DNA of 64,000 nucleotides from Synergistaceae bacterium. Its GTDB lineage: Bacteria; Synergistota; Synergistia; Synergistales; Aminobacteriaceae. Location of the stretch: positions 1-64,000 of the forward strand of contig JAFSWZ010000038.1 of the NCBI GenBank assembly GCA_017450125.1. Reading direction: 5' to 3'. Under the pieces are notes generated by a model. The model was given only the letters and a program-made list of their open reading frames with translations. It searched no databases and was not told the DNA's origin. The first letter of the stretch is position 1; every line of letters starts with the position of its first letter. A program made the translations under genes and the position numbers. Shown here piece by piece: positions 3,068 to 8,732 of this stretch.

Positions 3068-3109
3068 GCACCAAGTTTTCCCACAACATAGAAGGAGGAG
3101 TTGTTCATT

Positions 3110-4323
3110 ATGAGCAGAATTGCTATTGTCGGCGGCTGCGGGCATGTCGGTTTCCCGTTAGGGCTTGCGCTAGCCAGCGGTCTAAGTAATTCACACAAGG
3201 GGGGGGGGCAAACTACGTATCGCTGATCGACATCAACGCTGAAGTCATCAGCACCATCAACAGCGGCCGCGTACCCTTCCAAGAAGCCGGAGCAGAAAGC
3301 ATACTCCGCGAAGTCCTCGAGGCAAAGGCACTCCACGCCTCAGACGACATGAATCTTGTGCGTGATGCAGACGCAGTAATCTTCGTAACAGGCACTCCAG
3401 TCGACGAACACCTCAACCCAAGAATCCGCGACGTTCTCAGCGTCATAAAGCTCTATCTTCCGTACATGAATCCTGGACAGCTGATAATTCTCAGGAGCAC
3501 AATCTTTCCCGGAGTGTTCCGTGTTGTCGACAATATGCTGACTAAGTCGTTCGGCACTGCACCGAAGCTGGCGTTCTGCCCGGAGCGCATCGTTCAGGGC
3601 AAGGGTATCGAGGAGATCTTCACGCTCCCGCAGCTCGTCTCAGCGAACTCTCCTGAAGCCTTCCGCGAAGCATCAGAGCTCTTCTCGCACATAGCACCGA
3701 AGATTATTCCCCTCGAGCCCGAAGAAGCCGAGCTGGCCAAGCTCCTGACGAACTCGTGGCGTTACCTAGAGTTTGCCATAGCCAATCAGTTCTACATGAT
3801 GTGCGAGGAGAAGGGTTACAGCTTCTACAAGATTCTTGGTGCGCTGAGTGAGGATTACCCGAGAGCGAGGCATTTTGCGCGGGCTGGTTTCGCTGCCGGG
3901 CCGTGCCTGTTCAAGGACACGATGCAGCTGTCAGCCTTCTACAACAACAAGTTCTTTCTGGGTCAGGCAGGAATGCTCGTGAATGAGGGATTGCCTGATT
4001 TCGTGGTCAGCCAGCTCGAGAAGCGCATGGGAGGAAGCCTCAAGGACAAGAAGATAGCTATTCTGGGAATGGCCTTCAAGCCCAACAACGACGACACGCG
4101 CGAGAGCCTGTCGTTCAAGCTCAGGAAGAATCTCGAGTTCAGGATGGCGGAAGTCCTGATACATGACCCGTATCTAGACACAGCACCGCTCGGGGAAGTC
4201 CTTGCGCAGGCTGACGGAGTGATACTCGGCGTGCCTCATGACGAGTACTTGGGGCTGAAGATTGCTGTCCCGTTCGTGGACTGCTGGAACGTGTGGGCAA
4301 CGACATCCGGGAAGGAGGACTAA
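3110..4323 (+). CDS. Nucleotide-sugar 6-dehydrogenase (UDP-glucose/GDP-mannose dehydrogenase family), out of frame at a G10 tract
   Basis: Family members oxidise the C6 hydroxyl of an NDP-sugar to a uronic acid with two NAD+. Translation from ATG 3110, after the ribosome site GGAGGAG, gives a Rossmann start (IAIVGGCGHVGFP). It then enters a run of ten G (3199-3208) and stops at 3224-3226. The rest of the enzyme continues in the other frame to 4323: NAD-domain end, central helix, active-site AGPCLFKD (cysteine near 266 of the restored protein) and C-terminal domain with FKPNNDDTRES. With 8 or 11 G the frame would be open for about 404 residues. An internal ATG at 3349 would lack the NAD-binding motif. 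The best reading is a phase-variable gene in the OFF state; a plain frameshift mutation or a base-calling error is the alternative. It is first in the operon, so polarity on later genes is possible. Substrate unknown. Confidence 0.85.
3199..3208 (+). repeat. Homopolymer G10 tract (putative phase-variation switch, OFF)
   Basis: Ten consecutive G inside codons 30-33 of the nucleotide-sugar dehydrogenase. Ten or nine G lead to an early stop; eight or eleven restore the frame. Elsewhere in the window G or C runs reach only about six, apart from the second tract at 6580. Confidence 0.9.
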
Positions 4324-4326
4324 CTC

Positions 4327-5349
4327 ATGAAGATACTTGTTACAGGTTCGGCGGGGTTCATATGCGGCTACCTTGTTGAAGACCTGCTTGAACGCGGGCA
4401 CGAAGTCATAGGCATCGACAACTTCTCGAAGTACGGTCCTGTCCAGAAATCGTACGACAGCCATCCGCACTACAGGTTCATAGAGGGCGACGCGAAGGAC
4501 ACCGGCCTCATGAAGGAGATTGCCTGCGAGTGCGACCAGATTCTGGCGGCGGCGGCAATGATCGGCGGAATATCGTACTTCCACCACTACGCGTATGACC
4601 TCTTGGCCGAGAACGACAGGATAACCGCCTCAACGTTCGACGCGGCGATCTATGCCTACAATCACGGCCATCTGAAGCGCATTAACGTTCTGAGCTCGAG
4701 CATGGTCTACGAGTCGGCAGCAAAGTTCCCGAGCGCAGAGGGCGAAGAGAGGCAGTGTCCTCCGCCTCAGAGCACGTACGGCTTCCAGAAGCTGGCCTGC
4801 GAGTACTACGCTCAGGGAGCGCGCGAACAGTACGGCCTGCCCTGCACGGTGATTCGTCCGTTCAACTGCGTCGGCACTGGCGAGAGGCGGGCTTTGTGCG
4901 ACAGCGAGATACTCTCCGGGAACGTGAAGCTGGCCATGAGCCACGTAGTACCTGACCTTGTCCAGAAAGTCCTCAAGGGTCAGAACCCCCTGCACATTCT
5001 CGGCAAAGGGAATCAGGTGCGGCATTACACGTACGGCGGGGATTTGGCGCGCGGAATCAGGATGTGCATTGAGAGCGAGGCGGCCGTCAACGAGGACTTC
5101 AACCTCTCGACTCCCGTATCAACAACGGTGCTTGAGCTTGCCGAAGCGATATGGCGCAAGATTCACGGGGACAGCCTTCCGTTCGAGTATGTGTGCGACG
5201 ATCCCTTCAAGTATGACGTTCAGAAGCGCGTTCCGTCGACGGAGAAGGCAGAGAGGATTCTGGGTTTCAGGGCAGAAACGACGCTTGACGAGATTCTCGA
5301 CGAGGTAATTCCGTGGATAGCAGAGCAGGTCAGGCTCGGGGGAATATAA
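4327..5349 (+). CDS. NAD-dependent epimerase/dehydratase (extended SDR) for a nucleotide sugar
   Basis: A 340-residue extended short-chain dehydrogenase that would interconvert or dehydrate an NDP-sugar in the cytoplasm. Visible features are the N-terminal cofactor motif TGSAGFICG, an acidic residue after beta-2 (GIDNFS) favouring NAD, the active-site serines in SSSMVYE and the catalytic YGFQK (YxxxK). Three bases separate it from the dehydrogenase, so the pair probably acts in sequence, for example dehydrogenation then epimerisation to a uronic-acid donor. Its stop overlaps the next start (TAATG). The exact substrate cannot be told. Confidence 0.88.
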   Translation: MKILVTGSAGFICGYLVEDLLERGHEVIGIDNFSKYGPVQKSYDSHPHYRFIEGDAKDTGLMKEIACECDQILAAAAMIGGISYFHHYAYDLLAENDRITASTFDAAIYAYNHGHLKRINVLSSSMVYESAAKFPSAEGEERQCPPPQSTYGFQKLACEYYAQGAREQYGLPCTVIRPFNCVGTGERRALCDSEILSGNVKLAMSHVVPDLVQKVLKGQNPLHILGKGNQVRHYTYGGDLARGIRMCIESEAAVNEDFNLSTPVSTTVLELAEAIWRKIHGDSLPFEYVCDDPFKYDVQKRVPSTEKAERILGFRAETTLDEILDEVIPWIAEQVRLGGI

Positions 5350-6065
5350 TGCCGCTCCTCAGCATAGTTATTCCCGTCTACAACGAGGGCGGGAACATCA
5401 GGACGTGCCTTGAGGCCATAGAAAGCCGCGTTGAACGTGAGCACGAAATACTTATCGTTTACGACTTCGACGAGGACAACACACTTCCGGCAGTACGTGA
5501 GCTCATGCCGTCAATGCCCTGCATCCGCCTCGTCAGGAACAAGTACGGGCGCGGAGTCCTCAACGCGATAAAGACCGGCCTTGAGACTGCGGGCGGAAAG
5601 TATGTCGCTGTAACGATGGCAGACCTCTCTGACCCGCCGGAAGTCATGAACGCGATGATTGATGCGGCAGAACGTGAGGACGCTGACGTTGTGTGTGCGT
5701 CGCGCTACATGAAGGGAGGCCGTCAGGTCGGCGGGCCGTTCCTCAAGGGGCTGATGTCCCGGACTGCGGGGCTGACGCTTCACTGGTTCGCGGGGCTTCC
5801 GACGCATGACGCAACCAACAGCTTCAAGCTCTACAGGAAGAGTTATCTTGAGAGTGTTGCGGTTGAGAGCACGGGAGGCTTTGAGCTGGGGATTGAGCTC
5901 ACGGTGAAGGCATACCGTCAGGGCAGGAAAATCTGTGAAGTTCCCACAACTTGGACGGACAGGACAGCAGGAGAGTCGCACTTCAAGATCATGAAGTGGC
6001 TGCCCGGTTACCTGCGCTGGTACTTCTACGCGTTCGGCAGAAAGGAGCGCAGACATGGAGCTTGA
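5349..6065 (+). CDS. Family 2 glycosyltransferase (dolichol-phosphate-mannose-synthase-like)
   Basis: A GT-A-fold enzyme of 238 residues that transfers a sugar from an NDP donor, in this subgroup often to a polyprenyl phosphate on the inner membrane face. It begins with the typical LSIVIPVYNEGGN, has acidic DFDED and ADLSDPP stretches for metal and donor binding, and lacks C-terminal membrane helices, so it would be peripheral. The start at 5349 overlaps the previous stop by one base, indicating coupling; an upstream in-frame start would put 12 non-homologous residues in front. Its 3' end overlaps the methyltransferase start by 11 bases. A polyprenyl-linked sugar made here could feed the membrane protein at 6753. 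Confidence 0.87.
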   Translation: MPLLSIVIPVYNEGGNIRTCLEAIESRVEREHEILIVYDFDEDNTLPAVRELMPSMPCIRLVRNKYGRGVLNAIKTGLETAGGKYVAVTMADLSDPPEVMNAMIDAAEREDADVVCASRYMKGGRQVGGPFLKGLMSRTAGLTLHWFAGLPTHDATNSFKLYRKSYLESVAVESTGGFELGIELTVKAYRQGRKICEVPTTWTDRTAGESHFKIMKWLPGYLRWYFYAFGRKERRHGA

Positions 6066-6756
6066 CAGGCTGTACTCAAACCGTTTCGGCACTGCAGAAA
6101 TGAAGCGGCGAAACGATATGTGGCGTATTCTGTGCGCTGACTTCTTCGACAGGTACACCAAGCCTTCCGACGATGTCCTTGACGTTGCTGCAGGTTACTG
6201 CGACTTCATCAACAACATAGCTTCTCCAGCCTCAGGGCAGACGCGCGGCAGAAGGATAGCCGTTGACCTCAACCCTGACGTGAAAGACCACGCGGCAGAG
6301 TTTGTCGAGGTACACAACGTTCCTGCACAGAAGCTGGACTTCCTCGAGGATTCGAGCATCGACACGGTATTCGTGAGCAACTTCTTCGAGCACGTAAGGG
6401 ACAAGGAAGAGATCCTGAAGATTCTCGGCGAGGCTCTGCGTGTCCTTCGGGACGGCGGGAAGCTGATGATACTTCAGCCCAACATCAAGTACCTCACCGG
6501 CGAATACTGGGACTTCTTCGACCACTACACTCCACTGACGGAGAAAAGCATGTGCGAAGCTATAAGTATAATTACTGATGGGGGGGGGGGGCACTTCATT
6601 TTGAGGACTGTACTCGATAAGTTCATGCCCTACACAACGAAGAGCAGGCTTCCGCAGTACGGGTGGATGATAAAGCTGTACTGCCATTGTCCGCTGGCGT
6701 GGAAGGTGCTGGGGAAACAGATGTTTATTGTCGCTAGTAAGGAGGTTTGCCGATGA
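6055..6756 (+). CDS. SAM-dependent methyltransferase with an in-frame G12 tract
   Basis: A class I methyltransferase of 233 residues. Motif I (DVLDVAAGYCDF) is near residue 43, an acidic residue after beta-2 (AVDLNPD) follows, and there is a motif IV-like SNFFEHV. Its operon position suggests it methylates a sugar or glycan. Codons 176-179 (DGGGGH) are made entirely of a twelve-G run. With 11 G the frame stops after about four more codons; with 13 G it stops after about ten. The gene is thus ON as sequenced but should be prone to slippage, and truncation would remove the last quarter of the protein. Substrate not recognisable. Confidence 0.85.
   Translation: MELDRLYSNRFGTAEMKRRNDMWRILCADFFDRYTKPSDDVLDVAAGYCDFINNIASPASGQTRGRRIAVDLNPDVKDHAAEFVEVHNVPAQKLDFLEDSSIDTVFVSNFFEHVRDKEEILKILGEALRVLRDGGKLMILQPNIKYLTGEYWDFFDHYTPLTEKSMCEAISIITDGGGGHFILRTVLDKFMPYTTKSRLPQYGWMIKLYCHCPLAWKVLGKQMFIVASKEVCR
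6580..6591 (+). repeat. Homopolymer G12 tract (putative phase-variation switch, ON)
   Basis: Twelve consecutive G encode four glycines in the methyltransferase. Loss or gain of one base brings a stop within about ten codons in either direction. Confidence 0.9.
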
Positions 6757-8732
6757 CAGCAGAAAGAGAAGACAGCATGAAGCTGAGATTCCTGAAGATA
6801 TGCTATGTGGTTTCAGCGTTCGTAGCTTGTTTCAGGTTCAGGGTCAGCGCAGTATACAACACGGGCGCAGAGTACCATAGTCTGGATTACTCATGGCAGT
6901 ACGCCATTAACCGCCTGTTCCATGAGGGCAGATTATGGGGCAGTGATGTAATCTTTACGTACGGGCCGCTCGGCTTCATGTTTAATCCGATACCGTTCGG
7001 GAACAACGTTGTAATTGCACTGGCATTCTGGAGCGCAGTATCAGTTCTGGCCGCGCTTCTGTTCTCCTACGTAATGTTCTCTGAACGCATGAAGAAGGTA
7101 AACACGAGAGCCTCAAATATCCTGCTGTCGTTCATACTCTTTTACGCAGGGAATTACCTTATGGGGAGGCTGTACCCTGAATACGTGCTCTCATTCCTTA
7201 TACTCTGCCTTTTGTCCGTATGCTGGCACACCGGCGGACTGATCCCTTTCCTGACAGCTTCAGTGCTGAGTGTAGTATCTGCATTCATGAAGTTCAACTC
7301 GGGATCGATGGATTTCGTGAGCGTTGCTGTATTTGCGGTGCTTATGTCGATCCGCAAGGGCAGGGAAGGCCTGAAGTTCATTGCTGCGTTGTTTTTCGCG
7401 CCGGCAATGTTCTGCGTATGCTGTCTGCTGTACAATCCGAGCCTTCATGAACTTGCTATGTATGTCAGGGGAGCTTACGAGATTGCCGCAGGGTATATTT
7501 CAGCAATGAGCAGGCCTGTCATGCCCTCAGCACTTCTTGTGTGTATGCTGTCTGCATTTATCGGCTTCCTGATGCTTGTTATGGTGCTCCTGCTCAGAGC
7601 TTTTGCGTTTACGAGGACTCAGCAGTCCGTGCTCTACGCAATGGTTTTCGCTGTAAGCACGGCCGTCTGCTTCAAGCACGCCTTCGTTATGGGGCAGGGG
7701 CATTGCTTCATGTTTATGCCGTCGGTGTACGTGTACTGCTCTGTGTACGTTATGTTCATGGACAATGAGCTGGCCGCATCATCAGGGACGAAAAAATTTC
7801 TGTGTTACGCAGGAGCTGCGGTTTTCTTCTGCACTCTCGCTATATCTGCCGCAGGTCTCAATAAGTTTCACCTGCCCGATACTGTGAATTTCAGGAACAA
7901 GAAGGAACTTAACCGCCTTGTATCCAATATCCTGACTAACCCGCTCGCTGAATTTCACGGCAATATAGCTTCTCTTGGAAGCGCGGACAAAGTTTACGAC
8001 ATGAGGAATCTCAAACTGCCTGAGTGGGTGATAAGCACTGTTTCATCAGACAGCGCGGGATTTTATCCTACAGAGCTCTCGCTTGTACACGATCTGCCGG
8101 GCTTTGTGAACATGCCTGTCATTCAGGCTTACAGCGCATATACTTCATGGCTTGACATCCAGAATGCGGGCTTTTTTGCGGATGATGACCGTGCCCCCAA
8201 GTTCATAATATTGCGCGGCTTAGCTTTCGACAACAGGTTCGCAGTTATGGATTCTCCTCTTGCCTGTCTTGAAATGCTGAGGAATTATTCGATACGGCGG
8301 AAGGAGGACTCTTATTTTCTGCTGGAACGCAGGCCTCAGCCTAAGAATTTCACCCGCAGAGAAATAGCTTCGCGGGAAGTCAGCCGTGACTCGTTCATCG
8401 ATATTCCCAAGACGGCACAGCACTGCCTGATGAAACTTGAGATGCCCCTCAGCCTTATGGGCAAGGCCGCAAAATTGTTCTGGAAGATTCCTGAAGTCAG
8501 GATGGAAGCAGAGCTTGAAGGAGGATTGCGTATCACCAAACGGGTTATCCCTGAGGTACTGGCGAATGATACCCTGATAAGCTCTATAGTTTCCGATGAT
8601 GAAACGTTCGGTGAGATTATGGACGGACGGACGGACATAAACCGTGTGAAACGCATACATTTTTCCGGGAGCGGCCTGAAATTTTTCGCGCCTGTTATTA
8701 AGCTGAAGTTTTTGGAGCTGCTACAGGAATAA
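6753..8732 (+). CDS. Large polytopic membrane protein, possibly a GT-C-type glycosyltransferase
   Basis: A 659-residue protein with about ten to twelve hydrophobic helices over roughly the first 360 residues, then a soluble C-terminal part. An extracytoplasmic first loop holds acidic residues and a FTYGPLGFM stretch, a layout like GT-C enzymes that use polyprenyl-phosphate sugars. I do not recognise the family firmly. The ATG at 6753 is chosen over an upstream TTG because AAGGAGG lies six bases before it and it overlaps the methyltransferase stop as ATGA. It looks somewhat more AT-rich than its neighbours, compatible with transfer. Likely role: last membrane step of the glycan operon (transfer or polymerisation). 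A flippase or plain uncharacterised membrane protein are alternatives. Confidence 0.6.
   Translation: MTAEREDSMKLRFLKICYVVSAFVACFRFRVSAVYNTGAEYHSLDYSWQYAINRLFHEGRLWGSDVIFTYGPLGFMFNPIPFGNNVVIALAFWSAVSVLAALLFSYVMFSERMKKVNTRASNILLSFILFYAGNYLMGRLYPEYVLSFLILCLLSVCWHTGGLIPFLTASVLSVVSAFMKFNSGSMDFVSVAVFAVLMSIRKGREGLKFIAALFFAPAMFCVCCLLYNPSLHELAMYVRGAYEIAAGYISAMSRPVMPSALLVCMLSAFIGFLMLVMVLLLRAFAFTRTQQSVLYAMVFAVSTAVCFKHAFVMGQGHCFMFMPSVYVYCSVYVMFMDNELAASSGTKKFLCYAGAAVFFCTLAISAAGLNKFHLPDTVNFRNKKELNRLVSNILTNPLAEFHGNIASLGSADKVYDMRNLKLPEWVISTVSSDSAGFYPTELSLVHDLPGFVNMPVIQAYSAYTSWLDIQNAGFFADDDRAPKFIILRGLAFDNRFAVMDSPLACLEMLRNYSIRRKEDSYFLLERRPQPKNFTRREIASREVSRDSFIDIPKTAQHCLMKLEMPLSLMGKAAKLFWKIPEVRMEAELEGGLRITKRVIPEVLANDTLISSIVSDDETFGEIMDGRTDINRVKRIHFSGSGLKFFAPVIKLKFLELLQE

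Follow-up and report, generated by a model that had tools for sequence, protein, structure and literature searches.

Near the start of the stretch analysed here (64,000 nucleotides from a Synergistaceae bacterium, hereafter the window), the gene of a nucleotide-sugar dehydrogenase lies in two reading frames that meet at a run of ten G, which raises the question of whether this gene is damaged, misread by sequencing, or caught in one state of a switch. The original prediction that the run splits the gene into two well-preserved frames meeting exactly at the run is confirmed by the coordinates, frames and domains, and its arithmetic, according to which 11 or 8 G would restore a product of about 404 residues, is correct. 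The relevant features are as follows:

3110..3226, + strand: N-terminal frame of the nucleotide-sugar dehydrogenase, with ATG at 3110 and a stop directly past the G run
3183..3193, + strand: upstream copy of the motif discussed below, TAAGTAATTCA, five bases 5' of the G10 tract, found by a matrix built from three other species
3199..3208, + strand: G10 tract, exactly ten G flanked by A and C; the proposed switch, off in the assembly
3208..3219, + strand: possible downstream copy of the motif, GCAAACTACGTA, whose first base is the last G of the run; recognized by eye, with similar flanks in a related species (G012)
3208..4323, + strand: remainder of the dehydrogenase in another frame, open to TAA 4321-4323, with matches to PF03721 (part), PF00984, PF03720 and TIGR03026

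The frame starting at ATG 3110 is preceded by GGAGGAG at 3094-3100, a kept ribosome-binding site, and comprises 38 codons up to TGA 3224-3226, five codons beyond the run, while the frame after the run continues for 370 codons without a further stop. Another inactivating mutation in the gene was looked for, and none was seen. The length of the run is the value given by a draft assembly of 43 contigs.

A match to the dehydrogenase of some kind is present in 33 of 41 genomes, namely this one and 40 related ones. Two species of the genus (G005 and G012) have close orthologues, with identities of 87% and 83%, and the remaining matches are 24-38% identical. Both close orthologues carry G12 at the site of the G10 run and are open, with frames of 399 and 400 aa, so that neither of them lacks the run; TIGR03026 and all three domains (PF03721, PF00984, PF03720) are matched by the pieces in the window as well as by the two intact proteins. 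The DNA adjoining the run diverges among the three species, and the rest of the gene aligns well. Since the orthologues have an open frame with G12 at this very site, the dehydrogenase gene of the window has the appearance of a contingency gene in the off state and not of an old pseudogene. This agrees with the earlier proposal that it is off by run length, which the 370 stop-free codons and the 35 further tracts of the genome described below also favour. As expected of a contingency locus, the frames are kept on both sides of the run, and the gene is off here and on in the two orthologues, in a comparison made between species with one assembly each. Many of these assemblies derive from metagenomes, and their run lengths may deviate by one base.

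The orthologue of G012 belongs to the UDP-glucose/GDP-mannose dehydrogenase family and is similar to the UDP-ManNAcA dehydrogenase 4r16 (137 bits) and to Cap5O (3ojl, 117 bits), with all three Pfam domains common to both. In the alignment, it has about ten residues more than Cap5O, with the poly-glycine, at the position of the run. We take this insertion site to be the loop after the first Rossmann helix.

The dehydrogenase gene is the first gene of a cluster that encodes, in addition, an epimerase/dehydratase, a family 2 glycosyltransferase, a methyltransferase and the product of a large open frame:

4327..5349, + strand: NAD-dependent nucleotide-sugar epimerase/dehydratase (PF01370, 132 bits)
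5349..6065, + strand: glycosyltransferase family 2 (PF00535, 91 bits)
6055..6756, + strand: methyltransferase containing the second tract, in frame (PF08241, 40 bits)
6563..6573, + strand: upstream copy of the motif, TAAGTATAATT, six bases 5' of the second tract
6580..6591, + strand: G12 tract in the methyltransferase gene, in frame
6747..8732, + strand: large open frame without a Pfam or NCBIfam match

The methyltransferase gene of this cluster would represent a second putative switch, on in the assembly.

The two tracts of the window belong to a much larger set. A pattern search of the whole genome revealed 21 runs of seven G, one run of eight, none of nine, and 36 runs of 10 to 14 G (7, 14, 8, 5 and 2 runs of G10, G11, G12, G13 and G14, respectively). 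For 2.16 Mb, 0.15 runs with at least ten G would be expected, as extrapolated from runs of 1-6 G in 345 kb with an about five-fold fall per added base. This bimodal spectrum of run lengths is the mark of maintained tracts. Gene families were scanned for 32 tract genes, two in the window and 30 in pieces from elsewhere in the genome; the four remaining tracts (the first tract of L034, L035, L043 and L055) lie in intergenic regions or in ambiguous or short frames. The largest class, 13 of the 32, consists of genes of glycan synthesis, namely those for glycosyltransferases, capsule synthesis, EpsG, pyruvyl transferases, a sugar epimerase and the dehydrogenase of the window. The others include genes of two large FG-GAP proteins, two asparagine-synthase-like proteins, one type I restriction specificity subunit and one protein with a pilin-type N-methylation motif; no family was found for five at 1e-5, and the remainder is mixed. 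Judged by the families of the 32 scanned genes, many of the tract genes have a predicted role at the cell surface or in restriction, as expected of contingency genes.

Several loci of this genome (G000) deserve a separate mention. A Methylase_S gene of type I restriction specificity (L045:4047-5577, contig 25) is broken by a C13 tract whose G strand bears the motif, a possible switch of the methylation pattern of the genome. The FG-GAP frames of L050:4562-9448 (contig 29) and L051:257-5089 (contig 33), with G14 and G11, extend for 1458 and 1572 codons after the tract and probably encode surface proteins. Contig 23 opens inside the G13 tract of a glycosyltransferase gene (L040:1-13), as would happen if the assembler had met mixed run lengths. 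On the same contig, three tandem glycosyltransferase genes (L042:4159-7070) contain a G11-G13 tract near each 3' end.

Extended to four species, the set comprises 116 tracts (94 in G sense, 14 in C sense and 8 unclear, according to open frames). Open frames of 40 or more codons flank 66 of the G-sense tracts on either side; among these, 31 tracts are in frame and the other 35 are out of frame; the in-frame share is somewhat above the one third expected for a free-running tract, although the frame state was taken from the longest open frames, which may bias this count.

These results bear on three explanations in which the dehydrogenase would not be a switch. The frameshift could be a homopolymer error of sequencing or assembly in a gene that is intact and does not vary: the genome is available as a draft of 43 contigs, and errors in length are in general common in homopolymers of ten. 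Such an error would account for the frame, but not for 36 runs of 10-14 G in a genome with no G9 and one G8, and it would explain neither the motif nor the presence of a long run at this site in two further species; we regard it as very improbable. That the gene is a pseudogene which has lost its switching accords with its being off in the assembly; however, the frame past the run is open, the start codon and the ribosome-binding site are kept, and the identity to open orthologues with a tract at the same site is high (see above), so that we give this explanation almost no weight. The run might also be a site of programmed frameshifting or transcriptional slippage, with the off-frame allele yielding a full-length enzyme, since long G runs are generally able to slip in transcription or translation. 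An out-of-frame relation common to homologues would then be expected, but G12 leaves both orthologues in frame and the tract genes are in mixed frame states, and thus no fixed shift is conserved; the hairpin signal is absent too (see below), and this explanation appears extremely improbable. We consider it highly probable, as a whole, that the dehydrogenase is phase-variable by slippage of its G run, that its tract is one of 36, and that the motif shared by the tracts of the genus owes its presence to selection, or to writing, that acts on the DNA itself.

The upstream flanks of tracts located in unrelated genes resemble each other. In most tracts, a motif approximating TACGTAAWWTTAC, an interrupted palindrome GTA-N4-TAC, lies a short way 5' of the G strand. 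Exact GTA-N2-6-TAC occurs in the last 24 nt before the run in 43 of the 116 tracts of the four species (15/36 in this genome, 11/29 in G005, 9/28 in G012 and 8/23 in G017), compared to 0.7-1.3% of control windows taken 100-400 nt from the run. With one mismatch allowed, it is found in 101 tracts (30/36, 27/29, 23/28 and 21/23, respectively) vs. about 22% of control windows, and 15 tracts lack it even then. The sample of G017 consists of 23 runs from 20 stretches, out of 40 places with G runs. On the 3' side of the run, the signal is weaker (8/116 exact, 41/116 with at most one mismatch) and strongest in G005 (6/29 and 16/29). In 12 of the 14 C-sense tracts the motif is present, with at most one mismatch, on the 5' side of the G strand, and in nine it is present on the 3' side; because C-sense genes show it on that side too, its orientation is not clear-cut. 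The gap between motif and run is 6-9 nt in 82 of the 116 tracts, and the spacer between GTA and TAC is 4 nt in 28 and 3 nt in 10 of the 43 exact sites.

Short runs do not share this feature. Beside 21 short runs of this genome (20 of the 21 G7 runs and the single G8), the exact motif was found in no case and the motif with at most one mismatch in six, which is near chance; 5' of 21 runs (19 of them G9) in two control genomes from one other genus of the order, it was found neither exactly nor at one mismatch. The motif was defined after the flanks had been viewed, and the control with G7-G8 runs and a matrix test came later. In the latter, a matrix trained on G005, G012 and G017 was applied to 345 kb of this genome, in stretches chosen around tracts with the exception of the window, and 17 of the 20 best unique sites lay within 25 nt of a tract, where 0.1 would be expected by area. 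At lower scores, the proportion of tract-adjacent sites falls to 29/92 (score at least 10) and 37/365 (score 8). The four species are related, and their tracts are not all independent events.

It may be asked whether the motif has a function at all. It could be a by-product of G-poor, AT-rich flanks, of peptides favoured before poly-glycine, or of selection for stops in the wrong frame. The flanks of the tracts are indeed G-poor, but a de novo search over the 116 tracts returned nTacGTAAttt with a score of 257, compared to 23-32 for flanks shuffled by mononucleotides; the flank at a distance of 30-58 nt scored 62. Asparagine and threonine are enriched about two-fold before the tract; however, the motif falls into two different codon frames, with 33 and 19 cases, and the choice among synonymous codons is biased towards it. 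In the seven codons 5' of the run, pooled over 81 G-sense genes that include paralogues, so that the p values are rough, valine is encoded by GTA in 63% vs. 22% (p = 5e-8), serine by AGT in 52% vs. 13% (p = 1e-9), leucine by TTA plus CTA in 61% vs. 22% (p = 8e-9), and arginine by CGT in 53% vs. 17% (p = 4e-5). The two codon frames together with the synonymous bias make a peptide-level cause unlikely; a cause at the level of RNA is less likely as well. As to stops, GTAA is a stop codon in one frame, which is seldom used (3 of 55 cases), and it can be argued, without statistics, that wrong-frame stops 5' of the tract are never reached from the gene's own start. Altogether, we consider a motif devoid of function rather unlikely. 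A hairpin was also considered and rejected: the outer pairs are complementary in 16 of the 43 exact sites vs. 16.9 in permutations, and the folding energy of 24 nt is not below that of shuffled sequences (p = 0.40, with a parameter set that may not be that of DNA).

Comparison of alleles with and without the run indicates how runs and motifs come and go. Of the 43 genomes of the genus, 15 have relatives of a FAD-binding protein with a GAGPAG motif and no Pfam match (L057); 12 alleles could be read from 13 loci. Four of them carry G10, in each case preceded by GAAATT(C/T)TACG, which is also present in one of the eight run-less alleles; the run-less allele of G017 (L294) retains the motif-like GAAATTTTACG. 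The length between the anchors is 75-79 nt in the four alleles with the run and 75-78 nt in the eight without it, and from this overlap it follows that run and motif arise in place. A mobile cassette of fixed length was rejected on the same grounds. In contrast, the dehydrogenase is about ten residues longer than Cap5O at the run. In the case of the family 92 glycosyltransferase, 14 of 30 loci were compared (16 rows), the other 16 loci being without the anchor peptide. The run is present in five rows and the motif in four of those; nine rows have neither, two of them representing the same gene, and one of these nine has TACGTA (L332). Two family 92 paralogues (L311 of G047 and L335 of G005) have kept the motif with a G run that is broken by T or shortened, as if their tracts were locked, and another paralogue (L327) has G16 without the motif. 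Motif and run can therefore part, as L294, L311 and L335 keep the former without an intact run.

Certain tracts have a different layout. In five of them (L035 and L055 of this genome, L162 and L164 of G012, and L263 of G045), TTGACA or TTGACT and TATAAT on the C strand are separated by a 19-21 nt spacer with the C run inside, so that slippage would alter the spacing of a promoter and not a reading frame. Phase variation of promoter spacers by G or C runs is a known form, as in Neisseria and Bordetella, and these five tracts share its layout, from which the tract of the dehydrogenase differs in being coding. The promoter-type tracts are weak witnesses for the motif, because it overlaps the -10 box there.

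Within the order, the motif is restricted to the genus. Among 180 genomes of the order, GTAAW at most 13 nt 5' of nine G is present in 37 of the 43 genomes of the genus, six being without it, and in 19 of 137 others. The sums for the genus are 118 vs. 7 for the reversed control in the first orientation and 385 vs. 47 in the other, in our reading of the table, each tract enters once in the first orientation, and overlaps are included in the other. Outside the genus, the first orientation gives 11 vs. 9, which is near chance. A search for TACGTAATT-N0-10-G10 over one genome per species (84,980 species) yielded 24 stretches, of which 20 are in records of Synergistaceae, Synergistales or Fretibacterium, many of them of goat, deer or reindeer origin. 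The tract flanks of G005 match those of RGIG3476, and those of G012 match Reindeer_1_mag_22. In a Fretibacterium genome (G045, L257), two of six sampled tracts have the exact motif and all six have it with at most one mismatch. The other four stretches come from an archaeon, Treponema, Melainabacteria and Bifidobacterium, where 1/7, 1/8, 2/7 and 3/6 sampled tracts, respectively, have the motif with at most one mismatch, and where the exact motif is confined to the archaeal and Treponema matches themselves. Judged by these sampled tracts, the four were taken as chance matches, and an occurrence of the motif in other phyla was rejected. In viral contigs, the single pattern TACGTAATT-N0-10-G9 was not found. 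The Melainabacteria record (G043; L276, L286, L247) contains 48 runs of nine or more G. Several of them follow TTC soon after ATG, in some cases with a prepilin-like GFTLA behind the run, and lack the exact motif; they may form a separate set of switches.

The tracts, their frames, the orthologues and the motif, with its restriction to the genus within the order, are shown here, and from them we infer the switching itself, a sugar phenotype and any role of the motif. Slipped-strand mispairing in replication would add a base to the G run or remove one, and the dehydrogenase would be made or not in each cell; with the enzyme on or off within a population, the surface sugar that depends on it would change. 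Loss of mismatch repair, judged by the MutS_I domain alone, was rejected, as this domain is present in 43 of 43 genomes of the genus, here in an open frame of 862 codons. In our best guess, the motif may keep the adjoining run long and unstable, for example as a putative protein-binding site, which is the first guess because of its palindromic form, the preferred spacing and the lack of a hairpin signal. A factor specific to the genus might target the motif and render the G run next to it hypermutable, maintain it in that state or initiate its growth; this is a tentative proposal, and one whose correctness we would doubt more readily than expect. If it were true, contingency loci would be sequence-addressed, the gain of a motif would make a gene switchable, and directed local hypermutation would replace passive slippage.

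Phase variation by G runs is usually held to depend on the run itself. Unrelated genes of one genus that have a common motif beside the run suggest that the behaviour of the run may be set in cis. The findings also suggest that uncultured Synergistales living in the rumen and gut possess a large repertoire of phase-variable genes; according to the excerpts of a review from 2025 (PMC11868660), the fact that such repertoires are known from pathogens only may be due in part to a bias of the databases. Among the matches listed in the open-access literature, no paper was found that deals with switching by G tracts in Synergistota or with a motif conserved next to poly-G tracts. We read the locus as slipped-strand phase variation, a phenomenon of a known kind, and the genus-specific candidate cis element beside the tract as new.

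The closest comparison is with the poly-G/C loci of C. jejuni. The excerpts of two studies (PMC4965091, PMC6321876) describe about 29 G/C tracts in strain NCTC11168, mostly within reading frames and in genes of surface structures, and, in a survey of the Campylobacter genus, tract lengths of mainly 9-10 and both promoter and coding forms. As far as these excerpts go, the system presented here is similar in its many tracts, in the coexistence of coding and promoter forms and in the association with genes of surface structures. It differs in the length of the tracts, which are longer here (10-14), and in base composition, as C. jejuni is AT-rich and the GC content here is 50-58% (2-kb windows of the stretch). 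In the excerpt of PMC4965091, the flanking sequence was judged, from amplified tracts, to have no influence on slippage in C. jejuni, and an effect of the motif on the run would therefore be new. Unlike the loci of C. jejuni, as these excerpts describe them, most tracts of the genus studied here carry a common DNA motif on their 5' side.
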